64,000 bases of DNA, from positions 58,804,547 to 58,868,546 of the forward strand of contig CM060194.1 in the NCBI GenBank assembly GCA_030549335.1, given 5' to 3'. Shown piece by piece: positions 9,608 through 53,869 of the stretch (positions are counted from its first letter, which is position 1; the number at the start of each line of letters is the position of its first letter). Under the pieces are notes generated by a model, which saw only the letters and a list, made by a program, of their open reading frames with translations, was not told the DNA's origin and did no database searches. The stretch comes from Pontederia crassipes. Lineage: Eukaryota > Streptophyta > Magnoliopsida > Commelinales > Pontederiaceae. A program made the translations under genes and the position numbers.

Positions 9608-10972
9608 ATGGAGCTATTATTACTACCCATGTTCTATCTGTTCCTTCTCCTGCATTCCCCTATGGTTGCTGCCAATCCAGTCATCTTTGGTTCATTGGTT
9701 CACATCGCTTTAAGGCAAGTCATAAAAGAAGGGTTGAAGCATTGCGGGAAAAAGTTGATTCACGCCGTCACTCACGTCAACCAAGAAGAGAGCAGCTCTC
9801 AGAGTTCCGCTTCTGGGCTGCAAGCTCGGCTGCGTTGGAACAATGATGATCTGCAATACGTGGCGGAACTCGCCGTAGGCACCCCTCCGCGCAATGTCTG
9901 GCTCACAGTTGACACCATGGGTAGCTTCGTTTGGATCGATTCCGGGTCCTGCATCGGATGCTTCCCGAAGAGGTCTACTCCTCCAGCTTACAACTCAGAC
10001 CAGTCCACCACCTTCATCACCCTACCTTGCAACAGTCCGCAGTGCCAGAAAATAAACAACAAGGCGTGCACCCCACTGTGCCAATACAAAACCTCATACA
10101 TCCAAGGTATTCTCTCCAACGACAAATTCAGATTCCAAGGCAGCGCTGATCATCCGTCCACCATAACTTTTGGACGTAACGAGGTGGACCAGTTCAATCT
10201 CTCGAGCTCTTTTGGTTTCGCAGGGCTCGGACGAGGACCCTTGTCTCTCATCTCTCAACTGGCCTACTCCAAATTTTCATATTGCTTCTCTGAGGCGTTT
10301 AACGACTCTACGTCCGGCTACATGTTCTTCGGTTCATACGCAGACTTAGGAGATGCTAAAGATGTCAATACGACCTCGTTTTTTCAGAATTTGAACTACT
10401 ACTACCTCGATTTACAAGGCATCTCAGTTGGTGAAACCCCCTTGACTATCCCTCCGGCAACTTTCAGATATGCAGAAAATAATCGGAGTGGAACAATAAT
10501 CGATTCCAAGAGCCCATTCACTTATTTGGTGCGTCAGGCTTACGACGTCCTCAGGAATGAAGTCATTACTCAATTAGATGGTCTAAGTGAGCACAAGCAG
10601 TCCACGGATGACTACGGGTTCGATCTGTGCTTCGACGTCGTCCCAGCCAATGCCACCACTTCGCTGCCTACTATGAAGTTCCACTTCGCTGACGCAAGTA
10701 TGACCCTGCCCGCTCGAAATATCTTAATATCCAACGATGATGGCTCTGTGATTTGCTTAACAATAATGCCGAGCGAAGATAACTTTTCGATCTTGGGCAA
10801 TTTCCAGCAACAGAACATTCAGTTCACATATGATCTGCAGTATGAGAAGTTGTCCTTCAGGCCCTTGCAGTGCAATCAACTTGAACCTCATAAGAGTAGC
10901 GCCATCAAGTTCCATTGGGGTGCCACTGCCTTCTTTGCTCTTCTTGTTTATTGCTTCGTGCTTCTGCTTTAG
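9608..10972 (+). CDS. Nepenthesin-like aspartic-protease homologue 1 (probably inactive, GPI-tailed)
   Basis: Intronless gene of 454 codons in peptidase family A1, nepenthesin (A1B) type. Residues 1-22 form a signal peptide (Leu-rich core ending AAN). Residues 23-75 are a short propeptide-like stretch. The two lobes follow, with the cysteine-rich NAP insert (C115, C118, C141, C146, C154, C158), GFAGLGRGPLSL at 203-214 and the C-terminal LGNFQQQNIQFTYDL. Catalytic sites are altered: VDTMGS at 101-106 instead of DTGS, and DSKS at 299-302 instead of DSGT. Both aspartates remain but the essential glycines do not. The flap normally reading YGDGS.T.G is shortened to SYIQG (163-167), with no flap Tyr-Gly-Asp. 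FGC is FGR here (R190), so one conserved cysteine is lost. At least six N-glycosylation sequons suggest passage through the ER. The C-terminus (SSA, spacer, 17-residue hydrophobic tail) resembles a GPI-anchor signal. Family placement is firm; loss of activity is inferred from motif damage. Confidence 0.93.
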   Translation: MELLLLPMFYLFLLLHSPMVAANPVIFGSLVHIALRQVIKEGLKHCGKKLIHAVTHVNQEESSSQSSASGLQARLRWNNDDLQYVAELAVGTPPRNVWLTVDTMGSFVWIDSGSCIGCFPKRSTPPAYNSDQSTTFITLPCNSPQCQKINNKACTPLCQYKTSYIQGILSNDKFRFQGSADHPSTITFGRNEVDQFNLSSSFGFAGLGRGPLSLISQLAYSKFSYCFSEAFNDSTSGYMFFGSYADLGDAKDVNTTSFFQNLNYYYLDLQGISVGETPLTIPPATFRYAENNRSGTIIDSKSPFTYLVRQAYDVLRNEVITQLDGLSEHKQSTDDYGFDLCFDVVPANATTSLPTMKFHFADASMTLPARNILISNDDGSVICLTIMPSEDNFSILGNFQQQNIQFTYDLQYEKLSFRPLQCNQLEPHKSSAIKFHWGATAFFALLVYCFVLLL

Positions 10973-11236
10973 TTGATCAAGAATTGGAAAAAGATAATTT
11001 GTGATACGTACTTATCTACGCATTTCGTTGTTTGGTTTCCTTGGTCATTCTTTTCATCGTACATTAATGATGAGTTGTGACTTCGTGAGCAATTTGGGGT
11101 TAGTTTGTATTACTACATATGTTTGCTTGTATGATGAAATGCATGGAAAAAATTCATATATTTTGTCTACATCACAGAGAGATTTGTCATTCTATTGATT
11201 GAAACGCCAATCATGGATAGTACTACTGATGAAGAT

Positions 11237-11278
11237 CAATGTCACGGCATTTGATTCAATTCGGTTCACGGGACTGAA

Positions 11279-11374
<96 letters not shown>

Positions 11375-11577
11375 AAATAATACTATGCAAAATTATAAAA
11401 AAAATAAGTACAGTAAATTTTAATCAATATTGAACGTTAATAAAAATTTTATGTTACTTTATAACTTATTCTTATAATGTTATTTGTATTTAACTCATTT
11501 CGGACTGAACTTTTAATCCGGTTTTAAAGAATAAACCAAACTAGATATGGGTTTCGATTAAACCGGTCTAAACATTG
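11237..11577. mobile_element. hAT MITE containing a GAT microsatellite
   Basis: Starts CAATGTCACGG and ends CCGGTCTAAACATTG, flanked by a perfect 8-bp duplication ATGAAGAT (11229-11236, 11578-11585). Same end type as the copies at 2812 and 8291. The (GAT)n tract makes up over a quarter of its length. It lies 265 bp past the stop of gene 1, possibly in or near the 3' UTR. Confidence 0.86.
11279..11374. repeat. (GAT)32 microsatellite
   Basis: About 96 bp of uninterrupted GAT. The open frame giving a polymethionine run is an artefact of this tract. The length and purity suggest a highly polymorphic locus. Confidence 0.95.
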
Positions 11578-11597
11578 ATGAAGATATAATAATTTAG

Positions 11598-12161
11598 TGT
11601 TGGGCCTTTGGAGGAGTTAATTAAACCTAATTAATTAGTTAAGATTTTCTCTCTCCCGCTAGTAACGGCTGCCGAGACATTTTGTTGAAGCCACCGAGCT
11701 CTCTCTTTAGGTTGTTGCAGCCGAGAATTAAAAAAAAAGATGCTTTCTTGCTTTTGTGCGGATGAGAGTTGATTGGAAAAAGAAGAAGGGGATTTTTTGT
11801 CAACCGATATAAAGAAGAGGAGAGAAAAAAGAGAAGAGCTTGAAGAGCAAAGAATTGATATCTAAAGAATTATAATATTCATGTTACAATATTTATACTA
11901 TTATTTCAGTATTTTTTAGTGAAACATTATTTATCTTTGTGAATTATTATTCATATTCGGGTGAAATATGAAAGATAGTGTATTCTATTCTTTAAATAGT
12001 GATGCTGCTATGTGATTGTTTCGTAACTTTTTTCCCTTCTTATTATTGAAAGTTTTTTCACGTAAATTTAACGTCTCATTTGACCATTATTATTTTTTAT
12101 GCATCGTATTTAGCTTATATTATTTAATTCACACATAAGAAGAAAAATTAAATTCTTAACA
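11598..12161 (+). repeat. 5' LTR of the copia fossil
   Basis: TG...CA ends, 564 bp, directly followed by a PBS-like stretch. No partner LTR remains in the window, so age cannot be read from LTR divergence. Confidence 0.6.
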
Positions 12162-13048
12162 AGTGATATTCAAGCGAGGTTAATTGGGGATTTCTTTTGT
12201 GTGAATTAAATGGAGGAAGTCTATTTTAACAAAATGATCAAAGTGGCATGAATATTGTTCAGTTTGAAAAGCCAAGATGAAGGTCTTTCTTTACTACAAT
12301 GATTTGTTAGCAAGGAAATTGATAAAGTTGGAGAAAGATGATCATATTATTGGGATGATTAGGTAATTTATCGATGTTAGTGTTTTTCAACATGTTGGTC
12401 AAGTGACAATGCACAAGTTTTGTGGATAAAGTTGCGAGACTTATATGAATACAACTAAGAATAAAGCTTTCATGACAAAAGAATTGATGAACTTGAAGTT
12501 TAAAGATGAAAATTCTATTGTTAAGAATTTGAGTAAATTTTATGAAATAGTAAATTAGTTGGGAGCAATGAAAATAATTTTTTATGATAAAATGTAAGGA
12601 TTAATGTTCCTAAGTTCTTTGCCAAATTTATTGAAAATCTTGATGATAACACTTAGTAATTCTATTTCTAATAATGTTGTATCACTCTCCATGGTCAATG
12701 GAAGAGCATGGGCACATATAATAGACATATTCTTATTACAATATATATTATCATTATGTCAAGGTAGTACATATCAAGATAAATTGTAGAGATTGGAAGA
12801 ATAAACCAAATGATTAATTGAACTTAATGCACACCAAATTTATGTCACAAAATACTTGGACACATAAGTGAGAAAAAAATGCAAGTTCTTATGAAGAATC
12901 CCAACATCATTGTTACCAAAGGAAAATTTATGAATACTTGTAATGATTGTCTTTTTTATAAGCAGTGCAAAGTGTCATTTGTGTCCAATTATAAGAAGAA
13001 GGATAATAAATTAGATTTGGTGTATTCTAATGTGTGTGATTCCATTGA

Positions 13049-13600
13049 TAGAGGTGAAAGTAGTTCGGGTCGGGTTTTCGGTCTAAAAAATAAATGTTAC
13101 TTTTTGGGTCGGTTTTTAAAATTAAAAAACCACCCTAATATCATTTTGAAAAAATAAAAACCACCCTTTAGCGGATCAATTTTTTCGGATAATTTTTTTG
13201 ATACCCTACTTTTATATAATTATATTTTAAAAATATATTTAATAACTTAAAATTAATATAAAAATATTTAATTTTATATTAAATATAAAATACACTACTA
13301 AAATTTTAAAGTTATTAAATTAGAGTTTGATAATGTGATAGAAAAGTATAAAATTTTATACAAAAAATATTATATCTATAATAAAAGAATTAATAGAACA
13401 TGAATTAATTATATAAATAAAAAATCATAAATAAAAAACAAACTCCACAGGCCCTACGATTTTTTTGAGTGGGATATTAATTTTAGCGAGCGGATTTTAA
13501 TTTATTAAAAACTATCTTAAATCAAATTCAGACCCCTAATTTTCAGTTTTTTCGGGTTGGATGGGTTTTTCGGGTTGGTTGGATTTTTTTTACACCCCTA
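13049..13600. mobile_element. hAT MITE nested in the copia fossil
   Basis: Ends TAGAGGTGAAAG and (reverse complement) TAGGGGTGTAAAA, a classic hAT terminal sequence. Flanked by TCCATTGA / TCCATTGT, an 8-bp duplication with one mismatch. The interior has 'tcgggtcgggttttcgg' near one end and 'tcgggttggatggg' near the other, with AT-rich sequence between. Its insertion postdates the copia element. Confidence 0.8.
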
Positions 13601-13919
13601 TCCATTGTGGTAAATTTTTTAGTGACAATGGATATTTTGTAAATTTTATTGATGATGTTTTATGAAAATTATGGATTTCTTTTAGGAAGACAAAAATCAA
13701 GTATTTTAGTTTTTAAAAATATAGTAAATCATCAGAAGGATAATAAATAATGTTCGGTATGCACAAGGTAGAAAGGCGAGGGAGGAGCATGATGTGCAGT
13801 TGATAGGTGTCGTCTACGTCCTCCGCCATATTCTTTGGTGACGATGAGTGTGAGCGAGGCAGAAAGGTGAGGGAGGAGCGTGATATGCAGCTTATGGTTT
13901 CTCCCTTATTCTCTCCTGT

Positions 13920-14215
13920 AATGTCATTTTATGACAACTTCCTTTGATTATCAATTCTTTTATTTTCAACATATTAATTTTAAATTAGTATTTATCTAGT
14001 TCTAATATTTAGTTCAAATTGAGTCTACCCATAAGTCAATGGGCAATTGTGTGAACCCGCCCAGCCATATATAATTTCTCCTATGGAATTTGATTTGTGA
14101 TGTAGAATTTCTGTTCTCTTCCTAGAATTTTCAAAGGAGGCAACATCCGCCATGAGCGACACATTTGTTTCGGGCCTCTTACACTAGATGTTTACGCAAG
14201 GTTTGTGTGAAAAGA
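13920..14215 (+). repeat. Dispersed repeat, copy A
   Basis: About 300 bp that recurs at 29090-29392. Shared phrases: 'tctacccataagtcaat', 'tttgatttgtgatgtagaatt', 'gttctcttcctag', 'caacatccgcca' and 'acactagatgtttacg'. No domain recognised. Together the copies bracket about 15 kb of transposon-rich DNA in the gene 1-gene 2 spacer. Confidence 0.7.
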
Positions 14216-14519
14216 AACTAATAGGAAGAAAATGTAAAATTATAAAACTTTGGAGTCAGTCCTCCAAGGTCAAGGATTGAATACGTTGATGTCGAATGTC
14301 AGGAACGACAATGACGGCGATAACAATTTAAGATAAAAACTTCTATATTATTTTGTTATGATGTATTATATCATTTTGTTATCTTATTAGCTCTTTTGTG
14401 TTGGTTATTAGTACTTTTCTTTATTATTATTGTCATCAATGTGAAGAATGCATTATATATGCATTGTATAATTTGTAGGATGTGGAAAGGAAATAAAACT
14501 ACTGAAATTTGACAAAAAT

Positions 14520-14960
14520 ATTAGGATTTAGCGTCGTAATGTGATTGTATGCTATTTGAAATATATCACAAGTGGCATCACATTAGCGTCCCTTTAGCAT
14601 CGCATGATTTGACATCATGTTAGCGTCTCAATAGAGATGCAATACAACATCACATTAATGTCACATTGGAGTCTAAGTAATATCACAGTAAGCACAACTT
14701 TAATACCACCTTCAGTGCCAACTTAGCGTCAAGTTAGTGACGCTCATAAACTCCTCACAAAGACATTTTTGCGTCATCATAACGTCACAATAACATCAAC
14801 ATGTGACGTTAGTAACGTCGCGTTTGTCCTCGACGCCATAATGTATTTATTTTGATCACATTTTAATGTCGCCTTAGCCACATGCGTCTATCACAAATCG
14901 ACAAATTTGTTTTAGTGTCACCTAACTACAAGATAATATTGTCGTCATAACAAGAAGGAT
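14520..14960. repeat. TAGCGTC/GACGC motif array, CACTA-like subterminal region
   Basis: Many short TTAGCGTC, GCGTCA and GTGACG motifs in both orientations, as in CACTA subterminal regions. The same motifs precede the CACTA end at 27973. A weak CACTA-type end (AACTACAAGATAA) occurs near 14930. No complete element can be drawn. Confidence 0.4.
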
Positions 14961-16397
14961 AATGTTGTCGTTGTGCACTTGAAGTTGAACCCCTGGCAAC
15001 ACGAAATTACCTGGGGAATCCGTTAGATGCTACTAGGTCTTTTAATTTGACAAGGACATATTTTGATCTTAAACATCCTTTTTTTTTGTTATTTTATCAT
15101 TTAAAGGGCTGTTGATAATGCCTTCTTCAATACGCAGGTCACACAAACACTGAGCAGCGTTCGTCTTGTCGTCTAGTCAAAGTCTTCCGTCCGTGTAATC
15201 CAAGTCAACGCAAATAGACGGTGAGTCGATGACTTTCATTGTCTAAATTAGTTTTATTATCTTTATTTTATAAAGTGGGGTTCGAGGGCTAGGTATATAG
15301 AAGGATGAACAAAAAAAAGAGCCGCAAAATTTCACCCTTCACGTATTATAGACGAATTAATGCCAAAATTTAATTAATTAGAATAATACAAAATGGTCTC
15401 GACAAGATCACCTTAATTTTATTTATCAGATATTAATAAATTTAATTAACGCAATCAATTAATAAGATCGTGCATAAATAATACAGAATTAGAATTAGTT
15501 GGTAGGCAAACGGAATATTTTTTTAAAAAAAAAGATAACGTCAAAAATGAACCTTGTGTCGCCCACTACATATCAAATCAAAATGAATGGACAAAATATA
15601 TCTTTTTTTAAGTGTCGGCTCGATTCTACTGAAGGTCTCCGATGTTTGAGGTTATTAGCACTCGACTAATCCGAAGTCGGAAAGATAAAACAATAAAGAC
15701 TTATTCCCTGAATAAGATGACGACTCCGAAATTTGAACCTGAGATTACTAACACTCAACGAGCGCTTAGAACTCAATCTTACTACCAATTGAGTCAACCA
15801 TCCTTGGCTATCTATTCTTGCCGATTATAATGTCTTTTTTTCTTATACATTTCTTTTACAAATTGAATACAAGTGTTTCACGACAAAAAAATGAATACAA
15901 GAAAAGACCGGCAGTCCATAATATATGGTCAATCGCTGCTGTCATTTTTTTTCTCGTTAACATTTTTGCTATCTAGCTAGGTTCTTTTTTTTCTTAAAAA
16001 AAGGAAATGATCCATTAATATTACTCAAAAGAGGTCATACAGTCAATATATAGAAAATCGAGAATTCCGAAGGGAAACATCCTCTTACAATTGATCGGTA
16101 AGTTTAGAAATATGTCTACATTTAATTTGTGCTAAGCCGGGTGATAAAAATCACTTATAATGTTCATTATACGTCAGGAATAGGGGGAATAGGGGGGATA
16201 GGGGGATTTGTTATTTAGGATGTCCACAGTAAGTTTAGAATTCGACTCCGATATGATTTGCTTAATACCCCGCGAGCAGCAATCTAGCACACTGCAGCGT
16301 ATACGCCAAATTTTCGCTTCTAAAGTCGAGTGAAAATGTTGAAAAGTGACTCATGCACATATAAATTTAGTGTTAGAAAATCTAAGAAAAAAATATA
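14961..16397. other. Spacer with one probable short repeat
   Basis: No gene. The stretch about 15600-15832 ends 'taccaattgagtcaacca', a phrase type common at the ends of short plant interspersed repeats. Its 62-codon frame is not convincing as a gene. A run of AGGGGGGATAGGGGG-like purines sits near 16185-16208. Confidence 0.4.
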
Positions 16398-16810
16398 TCA
16401 GATGCCCTCTAATTTTAATATTTGCTCAGTGATTTCTTCCAACTTCATTTTGTAACACAAATGTTCTCAATCTTTTAACTTATTTCACCCGATGTCATCT
16501 TTACCTGGGACATGTGTTCTCCTAATTTTCTATCGATGTGACACCCACGTGGTCATCCCATCTCTCCTCCACGCAAATAATCGTCCGATGTGACACTTAA
16601 AATTATACCAAATATCCTCCAACTTTAATATTTGCTCAGCGATATCCTCTAACTTCACTTTGTAACACGAAGACCCTCCATTTTTTAATTCGTTTCACCC
16701 GATGTCATCTTTACTTGAAATAAGAGATCTCTCGATTTTCCGTCGACGTGACATCCACGTGGTCATCTGCTCTCTCCTGCACGCAAATAGCCGTTCGACG
16801 TGGCATGCTC
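16398..16810 (+). repeat. Two tandem copies of a ~210-bp repeat (left flank of copia insertion)
   Basis: Two direct units begin near 16398 and 16612. They share 'tttaatatttgctcag.gat', 'ttcactttgtaacac', 'ttcacccgatgtcatcttt' and 'gacgtgacatccacgtggtcatc'. A third copy in reverse orientation lies at 21700-21905, across the copia insertion. This is a pre-existing repeat that the copia element split. Confidence 0.7.
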
Positions 16811-16991
16811 CGACGTGGCATCACATATTAAACCCTCTTACTTATCATAAGTTGACCCACCCATTGTCAAATTATTTCCTTATTTCTCCCTTTGTCGTCG
16901 TTCGCTTGAAACCTCCTTCGTCGTTCGCTATCCTTCGTCATTCGCCACTTTCATCGTTTGCCGGCTGTCGTCTTCGCCCAAGCATCATTGT

Positions 16992-20431: not shown

Positions 20432-20433
20432 AT

Positions 20434-25637: not shown

Positions 25638-27333
25638 CACTACAAGAAAATCGCGATTTTTCGACGGACAATTTCCGACGGTTTGAAATCCGTCGCAATT
25701 TGCGACGGATTTTTCAACGGTTATGATCGTCAGAAATGATTTATATTATTATTTAATTTTTTGACGACTAGGAACGTCGATATTTCCAACGGATATTCAT
25801 CCGTCGCAATTTTCGATGAATTTTTCGACGATCATGAACGTCGAAAATGAAAAAAATAAATTATGTAATTTATTATATTATTATTTATTTTTTCCGATGG
25901 ATTTTCTGACAGTTACGACCGTCGGAAATGAAAAAATTAAATTATGTAATTTTTTATATTATTATTTAATTTATTTGACGATTAGGAACGTCGATATTTT
26001 CGACAGATATCCATCCGTCGCAAAATACACCGCAATTTCCGACGGTCGTAACCGTCGATAAATATATAATAACATCGTATGAGGGATATTTTATTAATAT
26101 AATTAGCGACGGTCCATCCCGTCACTATTTTCGACGGTTATGACCGTCGATAATATTTAGCGATGGTTCAAAACGTCAGTAAAATAAATAATAAATATTA
26201 TATATAATTAAATATAATATTTTATTTTTGTGATGGTCACAACCGTCGGTAACTTCAAAAATAATTAATATATGCATTTCCGACGGTCAGAACATTTGAT
26301 AATTAAAATTTCATTATCCCACTTTTTTTTCATTTTTCCGCTTTCTCGTCGTTCGAAATCCAATATATACCCTCTCCTCTCACCCTCCTCTCCTCTCTCT
26401 CTCTCCCTCCTCTTCTCTCTCCCGGCCACTCTCCTTTCTCTCCTCTCTCTCTCTCTGCCTCTCCATCTCCCGGCCGGCGAGTCTCACCGGACGTCTGATC
26501 CAGCCCGAAGCGGCCGAATTGACCGCCCGGCCCCAGCGGTCCGGATTGGGCGTCGGCGGCCCGGATCCAGCCCTAGCGACCCGATCCAACCCCCAACGGC
26601 TTGGATCTGGTCCCAGCGACCCGGATCCGGCCCCCAACGGCTCGGATCCGGCGCCGGCGGCTCGGATCCGACGCCGGCGGCCCGGATCCGGCGCCGGCGG
26701 CTCGGATCCGGCGTCGGCGGCCCGGATCCGGCGCCAGGCGCCGGATCCGGCCCTAGCAGCCGGATCGACCATCTGGCGGCCAGATCCGGCGCCGGCGGCC
26801 CGGATCCGACGCTGGCGATCGGATCTGGCGCCAGGTGCCGGATCCGGCCCGCAACGGCCGAATCGGCCGCTTGGCGGCCGGTTCGGGCCCAGCGTCCCGA
26901 ATCTGGCGCCGGAGGTCGGATCTGGCGCCTAGCCGTTGGATCTGGCAGCCAACGGCCGGATTTGGCCACTAATTTTTTTTATTTTTAAAAAATTCTTTGC
27001 GACTGTTGCGACGGCCGGATTCGACCGTCGGTCGGCTATTTTTTTATATTATAAAAATTCTTTGCGACGTTTTTGACCGTCGAAACTTCGACGGTCGGGC
27101 GAGGATCGCCAAAAGTTTCGCCAGTAGCAATTGTCGATGGTTTCGTCGAGCGGCGGTCGTGACCGTCGATATTTGCGGCATTTCTTTCCCAACCGTCGGA
27201 AAAGATTTGCGACGAGCGATTTTCGGACGTTTCCACTTCCGTCGAAAGAATCGTCGGAAACACTATTTCCAATGGTTTTAGGGGAAATTATAGACGGTTA
27301 CGACCGTCTGTAATCCCCGAATTTCTTGTAGTG
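25638..27333 (+). mobile_element. Non-autonomous CACTA element, 1.7 kb
   Basis: Starts CACTACAAGAAAATCGCG and ends AATTTCTTGTAGTG, flanked by the 3-bp duplication CAA (25635-25637, 27334-27336). Subterminal regions are packed with palindromes of the form GACGGTTACGACCGTC. Order: AT-rich subterminal repeats, pyrimidine-rich tract (26370-26470), GC-rich minisatellite, further GACGG repeats. No transposase, so it must have been moved by a related autonomous element. It lies inside the remains of another CACTA ending at 27973. Confidence 0.9.
26530..26960. repeat. 20-bp GC-rich minisatellite inside the CACTA element
   Basis: Units close to GGATCCGGCGCCGGCGGCTC recur, cleanest at about 26640-26740. 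Because 20 is not a multiple of 3, each unit shifts frame and all frames stay open. That explains the long Arg/Gly/Pro/Ser-rich frames on both strands (up to 238 codons), which are not genes. Confidence 0.85.
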
Positions 27334-29392: not shown

Positions 29393-29655
29393 CAACAACA
29401 ATAATGAAAGTAGAATGGTTAGTTTCCTTCCTTTCAATTTCAATAATTAATGTTCAATACATGTTTCTCTATGATGTAGTTGTACTAATTTATGACCTCT
29501 CTTTTATTTAAAAGAAAATAATAATGTTATCGTTTATCCTGTCATGCCATCCGAATATATTTGTATTTTAGAGTGAAGACTTACCTCAAGATAAGCTATT
29601 TTCTTCTATTTATACCTTAATTATATCATATCCGACAGTCGATACCTCATACATC
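29393..29655. other. Short spacer before CACTA copy 2
   Basis: AT-rich. Before the CACTA insertion this was probably the sequence directly upstream of gene 2, so any original promoter of gene 2 would lie here. Confidence 0.4.
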
Positions 29656-31281
29656 CACTACAAGAAAATTATCATTTTTCGACGGGCAATTTCCGACGGT
29701 TTGAAATCCGTCGCAATTTGAGACGGATTTTGTGACGGTTCATTTTGCGACAGATTTTTCGACGGTTACGATCGTCGGAAATGAAAATAATAAATTATAT
29801 AATTTGTTATAATATTATTTTATTTTTTGACGGTTAAGAACGTTGATATATCCAACGGATACCCATCCGTCGCAATTTGCGACGAATTTTTTGACGGTTA
29901 CGACCGTCGGAAATAAAAATAATAAATTATATAATTTATTATATTATTATTTTATTTTTCGACGATTAGAAACATCGATATTTCCGACGGATACCCATCC
30001 GTCGCAATTTGCGATGGATTTTTCGACGGTTACGACCGTCGGAAATAAAAATAATAAATTATATAATTTATTATATTATTATTTTATTTTTCGACGGTTA
30101 GGAACGTCGATATTTCCGACGGATACCAATTCATCGCAATTTACGACGGATTACAACCGTCGGAAAGTAAAATAATAAATTATATAATTTGTTATATTAT
30201 TATTTTATTTTTCGACGATTAGGAACGTCGATATTTCTGATGGATATCCATCCGTCGCAAAATCCGCCGCAATTTCTGACAGTCGTAACCGTCGGTAAAT
30301 GTATAATAATATCATATATGAGTATTTTATTAATATAACTATCAACGGCCCAAACCGTCGCAATTACGGACGGTCGAAACCGTCGGTAATTATTACAGTC
30401 GATAAAATAAAAAATAAATATTATATATAACTAAATATATTTTCGACGGTCACAATCGTCGGTAACTTTAAAAATAATTAATATTTACATTTTCGATGGC
30501 CGGAACCGTCGGTAATTAAAATTTTGTTATCCCTCTTTTTTTTCCTTTTCTTGCTTTCTCCTTCCCCTTATATAATTCCTCTCTCCCTCCCCTCTCTCAC
30601 TCTCCCTCCTCTCCTCTCTCTTTCTCCCTCTCCCTCTCCCGCCCAGCACCGGAAGATCTCCCGCACCGCACCGGACGCCGACGTCTCTCTCTCTTTCTCT
30701 CTTCGACAGGAGGCCGCTGGTGGCCGGATCGCCAGGCGGCCGATCCGGCCTCTGGGGCCGGATCCGGCCCATCCTGCCGAGGGCGGTCGGATTTGGCCGC
30801 GGCCGGAGCTGGCCGCGGCCCGATCCGACCGCTAATTTTTTTCATATTTAAAAAATTCTTTGCGACGGTTGCGACGTCGAAAGATCGACGGTTGCGACGT
30901 CGAAAGATCGACGGTTGCGACGACCGTCGAAAGTTTTGACAGCTGCGGCCGTCGAAAACTTTCGACGGTTCGAACCGTCGGCCTTTCCGGCAGTTGCAAC
31001 CATCGGAAACTTTGACGGTTCGAACCGCCGGCATTTTCCGGCAGTTGCAACCGTCGGAAACTTTCAGACGGTTCGAACCGCCGATCTTTTTCGACGGTTG
31101 CAACCGTCAGAAACTTTCGGTTCTGACCGTCGATTTTTTCGGCGGATTTTTTTTCGACCGTCGTAAATCGATTTGCGACGAGCGTTTTTCCGACGGATCG
31201 ATTCCGACTGAAAAACCGTCGGTAATTACGTTACCGATGATTTTCGGGCGACCGTCAGGAATCAGCATTTTTCTAGTAGGG
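29656..31281 (+). mobile_element. Non-autonomous CACTA element upstream of gene 2
   Basis: Begins CACTACAAGAAAATTATC and ends TTTTTCTAGTAGGG (a decayed TTCTTGTAGTG), flanked by the 3-bp duplication ATC (29653-29655, 31282-31284). Same family and layout as 25638-27333: GACGG palindromes, 'aataataaattatata' spacers, pyrimidine tract, GC-rich middle (30640-30830) without the 20-bp expansion, then GACGG repeats. No transposase. It ends 55 bp before the gene 2 ATG. Confidence 0.88.
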
Positions 31282-31336
31282 ATCCTAGTAATTGTTCGCT
31301 ACTGCCACACCTTACGTAGGTGAAAGGACCAAAATC

Positions 31337-32694
31337 ATGGCGCAATTATTGTTGCCCGCGTTGTTTCTGTTCTTGCTCCTGCATTCCCTACTGATGCTGC
31401 CAATCCACTTGCTGCGTTGAATAGCGTGGCTCAAAAGCTAATCATACGAAAAGGCACAAAAAATGCCGAACGAAAGGCCATCAAAGAGATCGTGTCCAAC
31501 AACAACCAAGATAGCGGTTCAGCTTCCGGCCTGCAAGCTCGGCTGCGATGGAGCAACGATGATCTCGAGTACGTGGCGGCGTTCGCCATCGGCAATCCTG
31601 CACGCAATGTCCCGCTAACCATTGACACCACTGATAGCTTCGTTTCGATCGATTGCGAGTTTTGCACTGGATGCTTCCAGCAGAGGTCCACTCCTCTAGC
31701 TTACTATTCAAGCCAGTCCTCCACCTTCGTCACTTTACCCTGCGACAGCACGCAGTGCCAACAAATAAAAAACTCCGTGACATGCGCCTCGTCGTGCCAG
31801 TATAGCACATCATGGAACCAAGGTCTTCTCGCAAACGACACATTCGGATTCCAAGGCTACAGCACTGATCAGCCGTTCACCATAACTTTCGGATGCAACA
31901 TGGTGGACAATTTCGTTCTCTCGGCCTCCTCAGGTTTTGCAGGGCTCGGACGAGGAGCCTTATCCCTCATCTCTCAACTGCCCTACTCCAAGTTTTCCTA
32001 TTGCTTCTCTAACGCGTTTGACGACTCTATGTCCAGCTACATGTTCTTTGGTTCCTACGCAAACTTAGACGGCAGCACGGCCGTCAATGCAACCTCGTTC
32101 GTTCAAAATTCCGACTACTACTACCTGGATTTACGCGGCATCTCAGTTGCTGAAACCCTCTTGCAGATCAGTCCGGCGGCATTTGATTACTTAGAAACTA
32201 CTGGAACTGGGGGAACAATAATCGACACGACAAGCCCGCTCACTTTTTTGGTGCCGGAGGCTTACAAGGCCCTCAAGAAAGAATTCATTTCCCAATTAAC
32301 TGATTTATCTGTGCAGGAGCAATCCATGGAAGTCTACGGGCTCGACCTGTGCTTCGATGTCCCAGGTAGTCTTTCCGATACTCCGTTGCCCAATATGACG
32401 TTCCACTTTGCTGGCGCAGATATGACTTTGCCCGTTCGAAATTTTTTTATAAGTAATGAAGATGCTACTGTGATTTGCTTAACAATGATGCCAACCAGCG
32501 CGACCTTTTCGACCTTGGGCAATCTACAGCAGCAGAACTTGCAGTTCATCTATGATCTGCAGACTGAGAGGCTGTCCTTCAGGAGCGTTCAGTGCGATCA
32601 GCTTCAACCTCACAGGAGCAACGCCGTCAAATTCTATTTGAATCCCACTCCTTTCTTTGCCCTTCTTGCTTATATCTATATGTTTTTGGTTTAA
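31337..32694 (+). pseudogene. Nepenthesin-like aspartic-protease homologue 2, frameshifted
   Basis: Paralogue of genes 1 and 3. The ATG at 31337 gives MAQLLLPALFLFLLLHS, a clear signal peptide. The frame then closes after 27 codons, because one base fewer than in gene 1 is present around 31387-31397. The long body frame (425 codons from about 31417) has no in-frame ATG until its residue 162, so no complete secreted protein can be read as the sequence stands. The body keeps the NAP cysteines, GLGRGALSL, ITFGC and QQQNLQFIYDL. First site is DTTDS (body residues 70-74), second DTTS (270-273): aspartates kept, glycines lost. The flap is shortened to SWNQG. The C-terminus ends in a hydrophobic GPI-like tail (PFFALLAYIYMFLV). 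With a CACTA element 55 bp upstream, pseudogenisation is likely. A sequencing error at the frameshift is the main alternative, since the rest of the frame is clean. Confidence 0.8.
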
Positions 32695-45346: not shown

Positions 45347-45431
45347 GTATTGGAGCTACCAAAAAAAATTGCATCAATCTTAGGTTAGACTTACAAACCA
45401 ACGAGTTAATCCACAAAAGTCTGCCCTCTAT

Positions 45432-45450
45432 CCCCCCCCCCCCCCCCCCC
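45432..45450. repeat. Poly-C tract (19 bp)
   Basis: A run of about 19 C in LINE sequence just right of the solo LTR, where RT coding sequence would be expected. A shorter C15 run occurs at 23903-23917. Confidence 0.9.
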
Positions 45451-47570
45451 ATTGATTGGTCATAGGAAGAATATCCTCAAGTCCCATCTTGGCATTGATA
45501 TCGGCTCATTTCCATTTTCTTACCTTGGAACTCCTATTTCCCGTAAGTTTATTCCTATTCCGGATCAACAATTTATAGTTGACAAGGGTACTTCGTGTCT
45601 AGGAGGATGGAAGAGTAAGCTTCTTAATTTAGCTGGTCGCACTACTTTAATTAAATCAGTTCTTTCTACCATACTTGTCTACTTGCTGGGATCGTTACAC
45701 CTCTCCTTAGGCATTATCGCATCGCGGAGCGTTGCTCTCGGATATTCCTCTAGGTCTGGGCAACGGTCAGCGGGGCTCCCACCAGATTAATTAGGCCATG
45801 GTCCAACTTCCTAGATCAATAGGAGGCCTACGCATCCGAAATCTCAAGACCATTCAGTGTTCTTTGTTTGCTCCTACAGTTACTTAATGACCACGAATGC
45901 CCGTGGGTTAATTTAATCACTAATAAGTATGGCAGATTCTCTCTTTGGTCTCCCAGTCCATTCCTTCATTGGCTTGGTCCCGATGACTCATCATCAATTA
46001 TGTCCATGATCTTCGAGAGGGATTCGCCAAACGGATTAGTAATGGGGCTAGCACTTCTATTCTTTATGACCCGTGGATTCTCTCCACCCCAATATACTAG
46101 ATTCCAAGGTTTGTTAACATGGAAATTGACTTTACTAACTTAATGATTGCTCATACCATTGTTAATGGTTTTTGGGACATTGCTCGGATTCATGTTTATG
46201 TGTCTACTAATGCCTATGATGATGCATGGGTCTGGGTGTTAGATACCCGTGGACTTTCAAATGCTAAATCTATGCACAATTATGTATGTCGTCATGCCTT
46301 GCCGACACCTATGGCTGGAGGTCCGCCGTGGAAAATGATCTGGCGCATTTTCATTCCCCTTAAAGTCCACCACTTTCTCTGGAAGCTCCTCCATTGTTAA
46401 CTTCCTATCCTTGATTATGTATCACAATTCAACATTGATCCTTCCTGCTCCCTCTGCGAGCATGCTTTGGAAACAAATCATCATTTATTTTTTCATTGTA
46501 CCTTCGCACATCAGGTTTAGAACATTTTCCAAGCTAAGTTCCACCTCCTTTCATTTCTTTTTATTCATTCCTGTGATTCTGACTCCTAGGTCCATGAGGG
46601 ATCGGGTATGGATCATTGGTTCAGGGACCTTCTCCTCTCCATATTCTCTTTTTGCTTTTGGGGGTTTTGGAAGTTGTGCAATGATATTTATTTTAACTCC
46701 CGACGTGCAACCGTTGAGATCATATGGGAGTGGGCGCTGGTTGGCTTTCATGAGTACACTTTGGCTCACGCCCCTAAAGCAACTTTCCCTCCAAAAGCCC
46801 CGCCCCCCTCCCCCTCCACGTGAGTCCGGTGGGAGCCCCCGATTCATTGGATCATACTCAATACCGATGACTCCTTCATTGGGGCCTCCGATGAGGGAGG
46901 TAACAGATGCTTACTGAGATCTTATACTAACACTTTTCTTTTTGCGAGAATGACTAGGAGACAGGGTATATCTTTCATGGAGATGGAGGCTTGGAGCATT
47001 TTTCTTGGACTTCGAGAGTGCTCGTGTAGAGGACTAAAAATGATCAAGATCAATTCAGACTCAAAGGTTTTGGTGGTCATTATTATGTAGAAGATGAGGT
47101 GCCCCTGGAGAATCTAGGGCCTCATTTCGGACATTCGTACTTTGATGTTGTCTATCTCATCTTTTACTTTAGACCATTATCCTAGATGTAGTAATCAAGC
47201 TGCGGACTATTTAGCAAGTTTTGATCGCTATAATGGCGATAATTTTTGGGAGGATGTCCCACCTCCGGGCCTTGCCCCTTTTTGTACTTTGACCAATATG
47301 ATCTTCCTTAAATGAATTTTACTATTAAAAAAATACATCGCAAGCCCAAGGTGCACAAAACACATCAACTTCGTGGGGGCGTGTCACTCATGCCGATCAA
47401 TTTCTTTAACCTATGAAAGCCACCATCCATTCCATTCGACAACAAATTCACTAACCATCACACACACTTTCTCTCTCATATTTTAAATTTATTTATTTTC
47501 AAAATTATCAATATCTTGATCTCTCTCATATTTTAGATTATCAATGCTCTCGTTTACTTATTATCGAGAT

Positions 47571-48032
47571 TGTCAATTTCTTGATCTAAATCTTAATATC
47601 TTACTATTTTACTACCCATGTCAATCACGATCTTATCTTCAAAATTTTATGTGTAAGATCCTAATATGATATTAATTTTGGTTACATGATCTTATGATTT
47701 TATCCATCCTATACGAACGTATGATTAATATAATCATTTAAATATTAATTAAAAATACTTCAATGATAATAAGAGTTAATATATATATCAAGTTAATATT
47801 TTTTTTTCATTTTTTATATGTTTTTATTATTTTAGCTTAAGATTCAATTAAAAATGAACTTAATGAATTGTAATTTAAGATTTAAGCGACATAAGTTAAA
47901 TAAAAAAATATATGTTACTTTTAAAAAATACTTTTTATTGATAGGTAGGATCTTATGATTCTCAATTCGATCTCGTGATTTTTTATCTTATGACCATCCG
48001 ATCTTATATAAGATTATGATATTGACAACCTT
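47571..48032. mobile_element. Possible MITE related to the 5567 foldback
   Basis: Left end GATTGTCAATTTCTTGATCT and right end AAGATTATGATATTGACAACC are imperfect inverted copies about 460 bp apart. The interior shares 'ttatgtgtaagatcctaatatgatattaattttgg'-type phrases with the foldback element. No target duplication confirmed. Confidence 0.45.
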
Positions 48033-48654
48033 ACTTATTCTCACATTTTCATTGTCACTTTAAATATTTGTTAAATATAGTTATTTGTGAATTAATATAT
48101 ATCTATTTATATTGGATTATGTTATCTTATAATTAATATGTTTATCATATATTTGTGTTAACTAACAAATGTTTATTTGTTTAGGGTTTAAAATACTTCT
48201 TTCACAAGGGATGAAAAGAATTACTCAAAATATAGTTTTTCTAAAAAAAATTAATTAACTAATATATTAATAATCTACTATACATAAATGCGTATTAAAT
48301 ACATTTATAATATTATATTAATTTTAAATTTCTAATAGAATTTGGACTTTTGAATTGTTATCTTTGCTACAACAATTGATCCATTTCAATCATATGTTGA
48401 TTATCTCGATTATTCACCTTTTGAGCTACTATATCCATATAGTACATCATATATTATAAGTAGTGGTGCTGATTCTATTTTTATTATTTATTTTTTTGCC
48501 TAAAAATGTTGATGAATCATCCTGATATATTGAATGAAATCATCTTGACTATTCAATTTGTCCAACATCCCTAATTTTTATAATCCTTCAATTTCCATAG
48601 GTCCTCAAGAAGGTGGTGCAACATTGACGCTCACAGCCACAAGCTCATTAAGCT

Positions 48655-48860
48655 CATGTGCTATAGTGCAAGGTAGGTAAGTAAAAGAAAAAAAGAACAA
48701 AAACTCACTAGCAAAGTTTGAAATTATTTTAAGAAACTTATTTATAAAAATAATCTAAAAAAAATAGAGTTACATGTAAAATTTGTAAAAGCAACTATGT
48801 TGTCTACTCGTCCTCAAACATTGACAATTTAAAATGACACTTCGAATCACATTATATAAT
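48655..48860 (+). pseudogene. hAT transposase BED zinc-finger scrap
   Basis: From 48766 one frame reads RVTCKICKSNYVVYSSSNI, then DNLK, a stop, HFESHY. This is the C..C ... NLK.H....H pattern of the BED finger at the N-terminus of Ac-like hAT transposases. An in-frame stop interrupts it and no further transposase was seen. Nearby MITEs of hAT type may descend from related sources. Confidence 0.55.
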
Positions 48861-50004
48861 AAGTAGGAAATAAGTTCAAGTAGATCAGTTACCATGAACA
48901 AATTCAACTAGTTATATCTAATCATGGCACTGCCGAGAGCTTTTTACTTTCTTATAATTAAGAACATATATATGAAGATTCAGTAAGATTTCTTATACAT
49001 TTAGAAATGCCATACATTTATTTTACTTTCTTTTGAATTCGATAACTGCAATGAATATATACTGAACGCTTGTATTCGTAATTGTGTCTAAGATTTTAAA
49101 GTTGAGTTTGTCTATGTTTGTTTATCTTATTTTCACACACTACAATATTTGTCATCCCAGGCTAGATAATTGATCTCACACCCTCCTAACACCATACAAG
49201 CCTAGACAACACACATCATTAATCTAAGACAAGATATTTATATCGTGACCATTAATTAAGCCATATATTAAAATTTGAAACCCTAATTTATTAAACCGAG
49301 ATGAAACTGCGAAATAGTCAATTTAATCTGTTTAAACTTGATTACAATATATAACTCTTTCACTGATTTCAACTTTTCCCTTCGAGTCGTATAATCTTTG
49401 TACAACACAACTCCTTTGAGTTGAATTTGATGTGTTCTGTTTCCCTGTATACGTTCTGTAAAGTAAATACAAAAAACTTGGGCAAATCTATATTATAAAG
49501 TTAATCGAATAAACTAATAAAGCAAACATCATATAAGAAGAATTGATTAACTTTAATGTACCTTAAAATATTTGCCCTAAGTTGCTAAGCATGCTATAAG
49601 CAAATCTCGTGGAGGGCAGTCGATAGATATGACAGAAAATGTCATTGTCGTTGAGGTTGAACAGGTCTACAATATCTCCACAGCTCTTCGTCGAAGCAGA
49701 AACTTCGTATAGTTAGCCCGTGGATACGTACATCATCCAGATTCACTCACGACTTCACGAGTTTTAATTTCTACGAGACTTTTGTGTTCTTTTTATTTTT
49801 AAATCTTTGCTTTTTTCGCAAGGTCTATGGGCGCAAGTTGATTAACTAATTAGATGATAATAATCCAAAATCAAATATGTTACATTATTGCTGCTAATCC
49901 TTTTTATATAAAATTTGAAATAGTCAAGTGGAAAAGGTCCTGGCATATTCTTTCTAACCCACGATGGATAGTTATCATCCATGCATGACCACCTGAAAAG
50001 AAAA

Positions 50005-50049
<45 letters not shown>

Positions 50050-50346
50050 TATTTTTACATGGTCATGATTTATTTATAGATGAAGCGGAGCGTCGTAGGT
50101 GACTCCGTTGACATATGTGCATGATAATTTGTTTTAATAGTTTTAGCGTTGTTACTTGTCAATTAGTCTTCAGTCGACATCGTAAACAGCAACACGTAGG
50201 AAGATTGTAGATAGCTATAAACGTAACCTCACTTTAAACACAAATAATTAGATCATCTAAGCTTATACTTAACATCCTCTCAAGAGAAAAGAAAAAAATC
50301 AGCATTTAATTTTGTCATCCTCCTCAGAGCTGTAGGAACAAAAAGG
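48861..50346. other. AT-rich spacer
   Basis: No supported gene. A 40-codon - strand frame around 49560-49700 looked protein-like but could not be assigned. An (AT)n run occupies 50008-50046. Confidence 0.4.
50008..50046. repeat. (AT)n microsatellite
   Basis: About 19 uninterrupted AT units. Confidence 0.95.
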
Positions 50347-50896
50347 CAGGGCCAGCTCTAGAGATCAAAAGGCTTAAAGCGAGATTATAAATTTATTTTG
50401 ACATAAATAAAAAATAATAATAGATTAAGATCTTTATAACTTTTTATATGAAGACCTATAATTTTATCTTTAAAAATAATTAGCTTATGAATATTAAGAA
50501 AAGAAGAAAGAATTTGGGTGTACCTTCTCAATGTAAAATACAAAATTAATGTTAATTGTGAAAAAGTAATAATGAGATTATTTTGTCAATTATGAGAAAA
50601 TTTAATTGAGCTATTATTGATGGTTGACATCGAGTTTAATATGAAATGAATTCATAAATTGAATATAAAGATAAAAAAAATATTTATTGTTATAAGTTAA
50701 TTATGATTTAGGTGAATGATATTAGAAATATAAGATAGTCTACATATTTATTGATAATTAAAATTAATAAATACATTAAATTATTGTCTTAATATTAGAT
50801 TAATATTATTCATATTAATAATGCATTATTAAGGGGCCTTGTGTAGGGTGAGACCTTAAGCAATTACTTTGATGGTCTCCCATTTAGTCGGCCTTG
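50347..50896. mobile_element. hAT-like MITE, 550 bp
   Basis: Ends CAGGGCCAGCTC and (reverse complement) CAAGGCCGACTA form short imperfect inverted repeats of hAT type. 'ggcttaaagcgag' near the left and 'agaccttaagcaatt' near the right are also typical. No clean 8-bp duplication was found. Confidence 0.5.
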
Positions 50897-51559
50897 GAAA
50901 GGAAAAAGACGCATAAACCCCTACACATTGTAAAGAGCAAAAGTTATCAGTTTTTTTTTTCCAACCCATCTAAAAAACGGTATCGATCGTCCAATTCGTT
51001 CGCGCTATAAAGCACATAATTAATAAGTTAAAAAGTCGATCCACCAACTCAACTAATTTAGTGTTCACCTCTAGTCACATGTTTGACGATTGCAGCTCCC
51101 AACAAAAATTCTGTGTGTTCATAATTCTTTGTGTTCATAAGATTATGCTTACCAATCCGTCCCAACTTCCATTAGTAAAAGTTACCAGTCTCTAGTATAA
51201 CAAAGTGATGAATAATGATGAATCGTAACGAACAATTAGACTCATCTTTCCAAACGAAACATAAATAATAATATTTGGTATTTAAATGCATTTACACACT
51301 CGGGATGGGTTTATACGCTGACATTCAATCAAAACCTGAATTCTAAATCTTAAATATTAAATATTTATAAAAAATATCATCCTAATCAATATAAAATTTA
51401 AATTCCTTAGATCGGAAGACAACGTAGGATATGGTTTTTAACTAGGAGTATTACTTATAAAATTATATATATCGAAATTAATATAAATAACTTATTATAT
51501 AATTTTACATCATAGTATAATAAGATATATTCAATGTTATATGTAGAACATCGTTTAAC
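50897..51559. other. AT-rich spacer
   Basis: No gene or repeat with clear ends. Confidence 0.45.
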
Positions 51560-51761
51560 CAGGGACGGCACTACGTGTGACATTTTGATATTATACTACA
51601 AACGTTATATTATATGTATGTTGGCCCTCTCAAACCATCAAATAATAAATGTTAGACTGTTGAGAAGTGTCATCTTTCATAAGTTGGGACGGTGAGGAAT
51701 CAATTCCACCCACAGAAAAATTTTTTTGCCCCCTAATTTTTTTTTCTTTCCTCCGTCCCTG
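51560..51761. mobile_element. hAT MITE, 202 bp, perfect 8-bp duplication
   Basis: Ends CAGGGACGGC and (reverse complement) CAGGGACGGA, flanked by exact 8-bp repeats CGTTTAAC (51552-51559, 51762-51769). It lies 870 bp upstream of gene 3. Confidence 0.88.
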
Positions 51762-51769
51762 CGTTTAAC

Positions 51770-52630
51770 ATTACCATAAGTTTATGCATTTTAGCAAAAG
51801 GAACATACAAGTATTTGTTAGAATAAATTAACTATCAATAAAAAATAAAAAATACTGAAAATTGTCGACGCAAAATAATCGTAAAAAATAACATCTATTT
51901 TAAAAATACCATTTTTCTTGATTATTAAAAAATCGCTCAGTACAACTTCACCCATGCTTTCCAGAGGTGCATTGAATGTCTTATATAGTAACTAATTGAA
52001 TCGGGAATGCAGAGAAATGAAGGTTAACTTTTTTTTCCCAACAATTTTGCTAATAGTTATTTATTGATAAAAAAATTCGGTGCTGCCCGAGCACAAAATA
52101 CTGTAATGCCTCGTCAAAAATATATCGCATGGATCGCATCAAAAGGGTTTGCCTCACCCAATGAATGATTGACAACAGAAAATATTGGATATCTTTGGGT
52201 GTATATTGATTTTTTAATAACAGTCATTGAAGTTCCCTTTGTAATAAAAAAAAATTGGCATCACATATTTACGATTTCTTGAATAAAAAATTGTCACTGT
52301 TATTGCAATTAATATATTAGTCATTTGTAATCCGAATAAAACTTCAAATAGAATAATATACATAAACACTGTCTCCAACCCTCTTAACTTTCGCTAGGCA
52401 GGTTCTCGTTCGGAGTCCAACGATAGTTTCTTTTTTACTAATTGAAAAGGTAGTTTTCTTTATGCTTTTGACAATGCAAACAGCAATAAATGTGAAGCGT
52501 TCGCGTAGTTCAAAAGTCAAAACCACTCAGACTTCTTCCTATGTATACGTTGCAGATAGGGTTGCCCTCTCGTATCCTACTACAAATTAACTGTTTCTTA
52601 ACCTCGAGTGGAGATATCAAAGACATCCAC
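51770..52630 (+). other. Upstream region of gene 3
   Basis: Non-coding except that the gene 3 frame stays open back to an ATG at 52541. I prefer the ATG at 52631 because the peptide from there starts with a signal sequence aligning with genes 1 and 2, and the 30 extra residues have no counterpart. No convincing TATA box. Confidence 0.5.
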
Positions 52631-53869
52631 ATGGCGCAGCTGGTACCGGTGCTCCTATCGTTCGTGCTTTTATTCTCTACAACGGCTGCTGGTTCGGGGT
52701 TCCTATTCAAACTTTCTCGACCCGGAGAGCCGGACTTTACTACCGACAGTCAGTTGGCTAACGCCAGCCCCCGAAAGAGCAGCTCCGGTTCCGGCTTCCA
52801 AGCTCAGCTGCGTTTTAGCGACGATGGAGTATTCGTGGTGAAGCTCGCCGTCGGCACCCCCGCATCCGACGTCTCACTCATAATCAACACCGCGGATAGC
52901 TTCGTTTGGACTGATTGCCAGCCCTGCACGAGGTGCTTCCAACACAGCCCCAAAGCTTCGGCTTACTACTCGAACCAGTCGTCCACCTTTCACACCCTGC
53001 CGTGCAACAGCCCGCAGTGCCAGGTAATAATGGAATCTGCCACGTGCACTCCGCAGTGCCAATACAATAACTCGTTGATACAAGGTATTCTCGCCAACGA
53101 CACGTTCGGACTCGACGGCAGCAGTACCGATCCGTTCACCGTATCTTTCGGGTGTAACAAGGTGGACCTGCTCTATCTCATGGACTCCTCTGGCGCTGCA
53201 GGGCTCGGACGAGGGCCCTTGTCTCTAGTCTCTCAACTGTCCGTCTCAAAATTCTCTTATTGCTTCACTGGCGGGTTTAATACGTCTCTTTCTAGCTACA
53301 TGTTCTTTGGTTCCTACGCCGACTTAGACAGCAGCGTAACAGTCAACACAACCTCGTTCGTCCAAGATTTACACTTTTACTATCTCAATTTTACTGGCAT
53401 ATCAGTCGGCGCAACCCTCTTGCCCATCCCTCCGGAAACCTTCCAATATGTGGCTAATTCGAGTGGAACAATCATAACTACAGGAACCCCGTATACTTTC
53501 TTACCGCAGCAAGCTTATGGCATCCTCAAGAAGGAACTCATTTCTCAGACTGGCCTATCTGTGTACAACAACTCCATAGAAGACATCGGGCTCGACCTGT
53601 GCTTCCATTGGCCATCTGATCCGTCTAAATTGAGCATTCCCATTATAACATTTCACTTTGCAGGTGCAGATATGACTCTGCCGGTTGACAATTTCTTGCC
53701 GAACAATGGTACCTTGGGTTGTTTGACGATGATCCCAACCAAGAGCAACTATTTTTTCTTGGGCAGTGTGCAGCAGCAGAACTTCCAGTTCATATATGAT
53801 TTGTCCACTGAGACGCTATCCTTCAGGAGCTTTCAGTGCGATCAGCTTCCACCTCGCAGAAGAAATTAA
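52631..53869 (+). CDS. Nepenthesin-like aspartic-protease homologue 3 (both catalytic Asp lost)
   Basis: Intronless gene of 412 codons. Start chosen at MAQLVPVLLS, matching MAQLLLPALF of gene 2; an in-frame ATG 90 bp upstream (52541) would add 30 residues. Signal peptide 1-20 ends TTAAG. The mature body has NAP-insert cysteines (C96, C99, C102, C125, C130, C139, C143), FGC (C175), GLGRGPLSL (191-199) and QQQNFQFIYDL. The first catalytic motif is NTADS (86-90), so Asp is Asn. The second is TTGT (283-286), so Asp is Thr. With neither catalytic aspartate, peptide-bond cleavage by the A1 mechanism is excluded. The flap is shortened to SLIQG. Several N-glycosylation sequons are present. It ends at PPRRRN without the hydrophobic tail of genes 1 and 2, so it is predicted soluble and secreted. 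The long intact frame suggests selection for a non-catalytic role. Non-proteolytic A1-fold plant proteins are known (TAXI xylanase inhibitors, EDGP-type inhibitors), but a specific target here is not supported. Confidence 0.93.
   Translation: MAQLVPVLLSFVLLFSTTAAGSGFLFKLSRPGEPDFTTDSQLANASPRKSSSGSGFQAQLRFSDDGVFVVKLAVGTPASDVSLIINTADSFVWTDCQPCTRCFQHSPKASAYYSNQSSTFHTLPCNSPQCQVIMESATCTPQCQYNNSLIQGILANDTFGLDGSSTDPFTVSFGCNKVDLLYLMDSSGAAGLGRGPLSLVSQLSVSKFSYCFTGGFNTSLSSYMFFGSYADLDSSVTVNTTSFVQDLHFYYLNFTGISVGATLLPIPPETFQYVANSSGTIITTGTPYTFLPQQAYGILKKELISQTGLSVYNNSIEDIGLDLCFHWPSDPSKLSIPIITFHFAGADMTLPVDNFLPNNGTLGCLTMIPTKSNYFFLGSVQQQNFQFIYDLSTETLSFRSFQCDQLPPRRRN

Follow-up and report, generated by a model that had tools for sequence, protein, structure and literature searches.

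A1B proteins that depart from the catalytic pattern of pepsin-like enzymes have been described before: individual non-catalytic members are already known, as is one seed-plant group without canonical sites. EDGP-type proteins, to which GIP1 belongs, share the A1B fold with TAXI, basic 7S globulin and conglutin gamma (group IV type). In the accessible text of PMC11313796, TAXI, 7S globulin and EDGP are described as inactivated by replacement of the Asp in the C-terminal lobe (C-lobe), with LSTRLP, ISTSTP and ISTINP as the respective motifs. The Arabidopsis group IV proteins SAP1 and SAP2 (DLGG/SSVN) form a seed-plant A1 group without canonical sites, as far as the available sections of PMC9937552 describe them. 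Here we analyzed a 64,000-nucleotide stretch of the Pontederia crassipes genome (1.13 Gb, 43 contigs), referred to below as the window (C12:58804547-58868546), which contains three nepenthesin-type (group III, A1B) genes with altered catalytic motifs. These genes proved to belong to a far larger clade, and the interpretation that we favor, with somewhat better than even confidence, is a non-catalytic A1B radiation of putative pseudo-proteases used for extracellular binding.

All three window genes were intronless, were encoded on the + strand, and contained the Pfam domains TAXi_N and TAXi_C with scores far above the curated cut-offs. Gene 1 (9608..10972, +, 454 aa) carried the first motif DTMGS at 9911-9925, the second motif DSKSP at 10502-10516, and a shortened flap, CQYKTSYIQG, at 10079-10108. 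The body of gene 2 (31417..32694, +, 425 codons) carried DTTDS at 31624-31638, DTTSP at 32224-32238, and the shortened flap at 31795-31824. Gene 3 (52631..53869, +, 412 aa) carried NTADS at 52886-52900, TTGTP at 53477-53491, and the shortened flap at 53057-53086. Hydropathy indicated a signal-peptide-like N-terminus in genes 1 and 3 and a tail resembling a glycosylphosphatidylinositol (GPI) signal at the C-terminus of genes 1 (10895-10969) and 2 (32617-32691), whereas gene 3 lacked such a tail. The first-pass annotation had located the three A1B paralogues at 9608-10972, 31417-32694, and 52541-53869 and had read their motifs as DTMGS/DSKS, DTTDS/DTTS, and NTADS/TTGT, none with both DTGS and DSGT. 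Our analysis agreed on all of these points except the start of gene 3, where 52541 is a second in-frame ATG upstream of the homologous Met at 52631.

The proteins, described as catalytically degraded in that annotation, differed in the extent of the damage, and only gene 3 had lost both catalytic Asp residues. In pepsin numbering, assigned by our own mapping, genes 1 and 2 retained both catalytic Asp residues and had lost the Gly of both motifs (positions 34 and 217), with the Ser of the first motif also counted as lost. In gene 3, both Asp residues were replaced, by Asn and Thr. DTMGS was also considered as DTGS with an inserted Met and was rejected because the distance to the next Cys was unchanged. 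None of the three genes contained the DTG(S)/DSG(T) motif pair or a full YGDxS-type flap. The flap, whose shortening that annotation had missed, was about five residues short in all three, and canonical paralogues of the same genome showed YGDxS or a similar sequence where genes 1-3 showed the gap. When each gene was cut at the flap and both halves were scanned against Pfam, 9-12 TAXi_N positions were unmatched versus 3-6 residues of the gene itself, suggesting that about six flap residues are missing. The 12-Cys layout with the nepenthesin insert, previously described as kept, was complete in genes 2 and 3 (12/12) and reduced to 10/12 in gene 1, which has Ser in place of Cys112 and Arg in place of Cys190. 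Mapped onto ASPR1, for which a Cys135-Cys218 disulfide is given in the available part of PMC9937552, these two lost residues would form one disulfide. The C2-C3 pair (C115, C118) was kept in genes 1-3.

To define the wider family, six-frame searches of the genome were performed with genes 1, 2, and 3 and one relative as queries; only the best candidates were scored, and all locus totals are therefore lower bounds. Clade and canonical loci were assigned by summed blastp score, the clade being delimited by at least three gaps at the flap. The genome contained at least 59 clade loci, comprising genes 1-3 and 56 of the 88 loci fetched, while 32 were classed as canonical A1B and six further fragments were left out of the counts. 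The clade formed two arrays, at about 58.09-58.91 Mb of C12 and about 31.65-32.68 Mb of C11, with a few outliers at C12:52.3 and on C6, C15, and C16. Matching gene blocks suggest that C11 and C12 are homeologous. A locus was called open if at least 400 aa could be read in a single frame from stop to stop, and broken if the stretch fetched contained no such frame. The 31 open clade frames included the body of gene 2, as well as L020 and L030, which had no convincing start in the stretch fetched.

None of these 31 frames had Gly34, whereas Asp32 was present in 25 and Asp35 in 29. The C-lobe Asp215 was kept in seven and lost in 24, with Tyr at this position in 21. A Pro after the second motif, at the place of the Pro in the second motifs of TAXI, 7S globulin, and EDGP, was found in 26/31 open clade frames versus 0/26 canonical rows, and a hydrophobic, GPI-signal-like tail in 27/31 versus 0/26. 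The canonical rows had been picked for having DTGS, so that DTGS in them is no finding, and one gene was represented twice among them, as L003 and L086 denote a single locus. The flap was 3-5 residues shorter across the clade than in canonical paralogues. In the large YSTDP subclade (L010-L073), the C2-C3 cysteine pair was lost, Trp was found at C5, and an extra Cys followed C7.

The phylogenetic tree, built by quick search without bootstrap from 60 rows and the 330 columns left after removal of those for the motifs and flap, placed all 36 flap-shortened rows in one clade (support of 100 in the Shimodaira–Hasegawa-like approximate likelihood-ratio test, SH-aLRT). We then fetched 20 extra A1B loci, 19 of which could be aligned; the exception, L093, has 286 aa and could not be placed in the tree because of its shortness. 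With these 19 genes added, the flap-shortened rows remained one clade and were joined to ten motif-intact relatives at 98. The intact sister genes lie next door (C12 58.98-59.16 Mb and C11 31.42-31.58 Mb), together with L081/L082 on C8/C7, and the next two outer nodes of the re-rooted tree (96 and 95) brought in intact genes from C3 and C4. Since motif-intact A1B genes surround the clade in the tree, the loss of the motif and flap appears to be derived, most simply through a single event. A joint clade with the EDGP-like L099 was absent from the best tree and cost 14.3 log units, but the approximately unbiased test did not reject it (p = 0.071). The 19 further genes comprised 12 with DTGS, five with DTS and DSGT kept, one with QTGS, and one (L099) with NLGG/STVD. 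Because DTS occurred in five of them, loss of the Gly alone is not diagnostic of the clade; the combination of Gly loss, the shortened flap, and, in most members, loss of the C-lobe Asp is. The DTS/DSGT genes (L097, L098, L101, L102, and L103 on C5, C6, C10, and C13) are a separate type. No relatives were confirmed in prokaryote and viral collections.

Several variations within the arrays were also observed. L015, L055, and L050, together with the broken L032 (outside the tree), branched off on their own within the flap-shortened clade. Their motifs (STAD/DTSEP, ATAN/DSSTA) reverse the pattern of the main subclade, as the second Asp is retained and the first has given way to Ser or Ala. The rewired nepenthesin insert of the YSTDP subclade partly paralleled the loss of the C2-C3 bond in SAP1, as described in the part of the literature available. 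On C11, three sets of copies were identical or nearly so and 78-90 kb apart (L062/L065 at 32247106/32326761, L066/L068 at 32347385/32437192, and L064/L067 at 32285679/32363545), which may reflect a block of sequence duplicated very recently or a duplication introduced by the assembly.

We next compared the C11 and C12 copies by the ratio of nonsynonymous to synonymous substitution rates (dN/dS, omega) in reciprocal-best pairs, with pair tests uncorrected for their number. Of 20 pairs run, L007-L008 and L085-L088 (non-equivalent by synonymous divergence, dS) were unused, as was L038-L046, in which the frame of L046 appears to be broken near the N-terminus. Omega was 0.32-0.59 and below 1 in each of eight of the nine clade pairs, with twice the log-likelihood difference (2dlnL) between 4.1 and 15.1. 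The lowest value belonged to gene 3 and its intact C11 partner L051 (NTWDS/STGI; 94% amino acid identity, omega 0.324, 2dlnL 15.1), followed by L014-L065 (0.363), L031-L068 (0.377), L011-L069 (0.416; L069 is a 341-aa fragment), L020-L061 (0.443), L025-L060 (0.508), L016-L056 (0.542; dS 0.31, perhaps not equivalent copies), and L022-L059 (0.587). Intact pairs gave 0.285 (L037-L047), 0.675 (L041-L043, not significant), 0.258 (L074-L077), 0.339 (L075-L076), and 0.304 (L081-L082), and the remaining ones 0.09-0.12. By these estimates, the clade appears to be under weaker constraint than most intact genes, yet not neutral. The dS values of the clade pairs (0.04-0.11 except L016-L056) matched those of intact pairs elsewhere (0.04-0.13), suggesting that the array probably predates the C11/C12 split. 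The proposal of a local clade of degenerate A1B proteins kept by selection was supported and extended to a larger clade with a single origin; among the window genes, it applied in full only to gene 3.

The condition of the three window genes differed. Gene 3 was free of stops, whereas neutral simulation along its branch predicted approximately 22, or approximately five with neutrality confined to a quarter of the branch; a count test on eight motif residues was weak (1/8 invariant, p = 0.048). Gene 3 is an intact, maintained, and constrained clade member. The frame of gene 1 is open in the window, and its C11 counterpart L054 is 96.1% identical but frame-broken; omega between them was 0.93, indistinguishable from 1, and gene 1 is best regarded as an open member of a near-neutral pair. 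In gene 2, the signal-peptide ATG (31337) opens a reading frame of 27 codons and a stop (31337..31420, +) that differs from the frame of the body, the aligned stretch being 74 nt long versus 75 in gene 1. The C11 counterpart of gene 2 is split across L052 and L053, two parts of one gene. Because L053 carries the gene 2-type signal peptide in frame, we read the shift in gene 2 as a lesion and the body as a pseudogene, although the shift may instead be an assembly error. Omega between the body and L052 was 0.73, again indistinguishable from 1, and gene 2 appears to be a dead copy, disabled on both contigs. Branch omegas computed earlier for the three genes (0.70, 0.46, and 0.38) were superseded by the C11/C12 pairs, as those branches include older time.

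Mobile-element and repeat features were found around these genes. A 1626-bp CACTA-type element (29656..31281, strand not assigned) with the target-site duplication ATC at 29653-29655 and 31282-31284 lies upstream of gene 2, its end separated from the ATG by 55 bp, and a TATA-like CTATTTATACC at 29606 lies beyond the element as seen from gene 2. A related second CACTA element of 1696 bp (25638-27333) has both ends and a CAA duplication. Two near-perfect palindromes at 1556-1832 and 5897-6392 (94% and 92% to their own reverse complement) are fold-back-like, and a TGA trinucleotide array of approximately 33 copies (11275-11374) lies approximately 300 bp behind gene 1.

We then focused on individual sites. 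Among 22 non-redundant clade members, Thr33 and Asp111 were invariant and Asp35 was present in 91%, whereas 17 canonical genes had Thr at 33, Ser (100%) at 35, and Gln (94%) at 111. The posterior mean omega in the clade was 0.06-0.21 at Asp32, Thr33, Asp35, and Asp111 and about 0.5-1.1 at the C-lobe motif sites, suggesting that the motif of the N-terminal lobe is held in a new form and that the C-lobe motif is loose. A site model on the full alignment had placed 12 of 18 sites at residues 26-59; as the alignment there was possibly poor, that model was replaced by a rerun on the gap-free mature domain. With branch lengths from IQ-TREE fixed up to scale, the comparisons for 21 genes of the large subclade (276 gap-free mature codons) yielded 20.5 for M8 versus M8a (p = 6e-6) and 29.8 for M7 versus M8, with approximately 9% of sites at omega 2.1 under M8. 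Sites with posterior of at least 0.9 were residues 170, 303, 306, 337, 367, and 378 of L061, five of them in the C-lobe. In 12 intact relatives (eight from neighboring blocks and four from C3, C4, C7, and C8), the same comparisons were not significant (M7-M8 4.1; M8a-M8 2.85, p = 0.09). The single-ratio omega was 0.45 in the clade set versus 0.22 in these relatives.

Compared with known systems, the clade shares TAXi_N/TAXi_C and intronless frames with nepenthesin-type proteins, among whose intact members it is nested, and genes 2 and 3 share their 12-Cys layout with the nepenthesin insert. It differs from them in lacking DTG and in its short flap, changed second motif, mostly GPI-like tail, and new Asp35 and Asp111. 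The TAXI/EDGP group resembles the clade in its A1B fold, the replaced C-lobe Asp (in most members, including gene 3 and excluding genes 1 and 2), and the Pro after the second motif, and differs in its first motif, DLGG/DLNG rather than DTxD. A profile of 21 clade proteins found its best full-length PDB matches among TAXI, EDGP, 7S globulin, and conglutin gamma; that list contained no active nepenthesin-type structure, so the rank says little about function. In the sources available in part, SAP1 lacks the C2-C3 pair that genes 1-3 have, SAP1 and SAP2 have other motifs, and a comparable array is not described in two sections of PMC9937552. GPI-anchored A36 and A39 also have a hydrophobic C-terminal tail. 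Among the matches listed from the open-access literature, as far as their text was available, no account was found of a flap-deleted, GPI-tailed, tandemly radiated clade.

These data are consistent with the following scenario for a non-catalytic radiation. The sequences trace the clade to one ancestor within the motif-intact A1B group, in which the first-motif Gly and 3-5 flap residues disappeared; its descendants expanded into an array on each of two paired contigs, and the majority carry a hydrophobic C-terminal tail. Many frames are still open and, between the contigs, under purifying selection, with diversification at a few per cent of sites. The proteins would enter the secretory pathway, where a GPI anchor may tether most of them to the cell surface, and would not cut peptides; instead, the two-lobed pepsin fold may serve to bind partner proteins, in the manner of TAXI and EDGP-type inhibitors. 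By analogy with these known relatives, loss of proteolysis together with a binding or inhibiting role is plausible, and an arms race involving recognition or inhibition of non-self hydrolases would be a likely setting. More tentatively, the clade may constitute tens of fast-diversifying, GPI-anchored pseudo-aspartic proteases in which the pepsin cleft, now bearing a new and conserved group of acidic residues (Asp32-Thr-x-Asp35 and W-x-Asp111-Cys), was remade into a surface for recognition, serving as a cell-surface repertoire of receptors, traps, or inhibitors.

Several points weigh against this interpretation. Both catalytic Asp residues are retained in 3/31 open frames (genes 1 and 2 and L009), GPI anchoring is based on hydropathy, and the Gly of the first motif was also lost outside the clade, with 7/19 further A1B genes departing from DTGS. 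SAP1 and SAP2 are reported, in the accessible part of PMC9937552, to be pepstatin-sensitive and to cleave MucD; in view of this reported activity with altered motifs, inactivity of the clade is not given, above all for gene 1, which keeps both Asp. Among the pair tests, L032-L055 gave omega 1.80 (not significant; L032 is broken), and three (2dlnL 4.1, 5.0, and 7.4) would fail multiple-test correction. The intact control set for the site models was smaller (12 versus 21 genes), and gene conversion may have inflated their signal. An AlphaFold prediction of gene 1 on three window rows was unusable (predicted local distance difference test score 31). Finally, 28 of the 56 clade loci outside the window had no frame of 400 aa, indicating strong turnover.

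The same turnover would fit a decaying family, in which the open frames are en route to pseudogenes and the low dN/dS reflects older selection, as would the breakage of gene 2 on both contigs and of gene 1 on one and the near-neutral ratio of gene 1 and L054. We consider this unlikely, because the low ratios were measured between C11 and C12 copies that split after the motif loss, and because gene 3 lacks the stops predicted by neutral simulation. The simpler notion that the cluster consists merely of stray pseudogenes was rejected by the pair omegas, the single-clade tree, and the open-frame counts.

It is likewise improbable that the clade consists of unorthodox proteases that still cut via Asp32 and the new Asp35/Asp111, or with help from the substrate. 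Asp32 is kept in most open frames, the new acid pair is constrained, the activity of SAP1/SAP2 sets a precedent, five other A1B genes have DTS for DTG while keeping DSGT, and HAP is described in the available text of PMC11313796 as active although its Asp32 is replaced and Asp215 kept. Set against this are the loss in 24/31 frames of the C-lobe Asp, whose replacement is said to inactivate TAXI, EDGP, and 7S globulin, the shortening of the flap tip throughout the clade, and the drift of the C-lobe motif sites. A role of GPI-tailed members in reproductive recognition on pollen or pistil surfaces, rather than against microbes, seems doubtful: the GPI-like tails, the pollen phenotype of the double mutant of GPI-anchored A36 and A39 (available part of PMC6591973), and diversifying sites, which fit any partner conflict, agree with it, but A36 and A39 are placed in group II, not III, and described as proteases in the accessible text of PMC9937552.

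The treatment of such genes in family surveys is relevant here. In the text available, a poplar survey required a complete domain with both catalytic Asp residues and excluded 22 of its 89 candidates, which were partial or had no ASP domain (PMC6591973), whereas a bamboo survey retained such genes, 18 of 129 with one motif and nine with none (PMC7798191). A radiation like this clade would escape surveys that filter as the poplar study did. If the proteins bind rather than cut, they would provide tens of naturally occurring versions of a single inactivated scaffold, the motif-intact neighbors would serve as controls, and the change from enzyme to binder would be directly testable.

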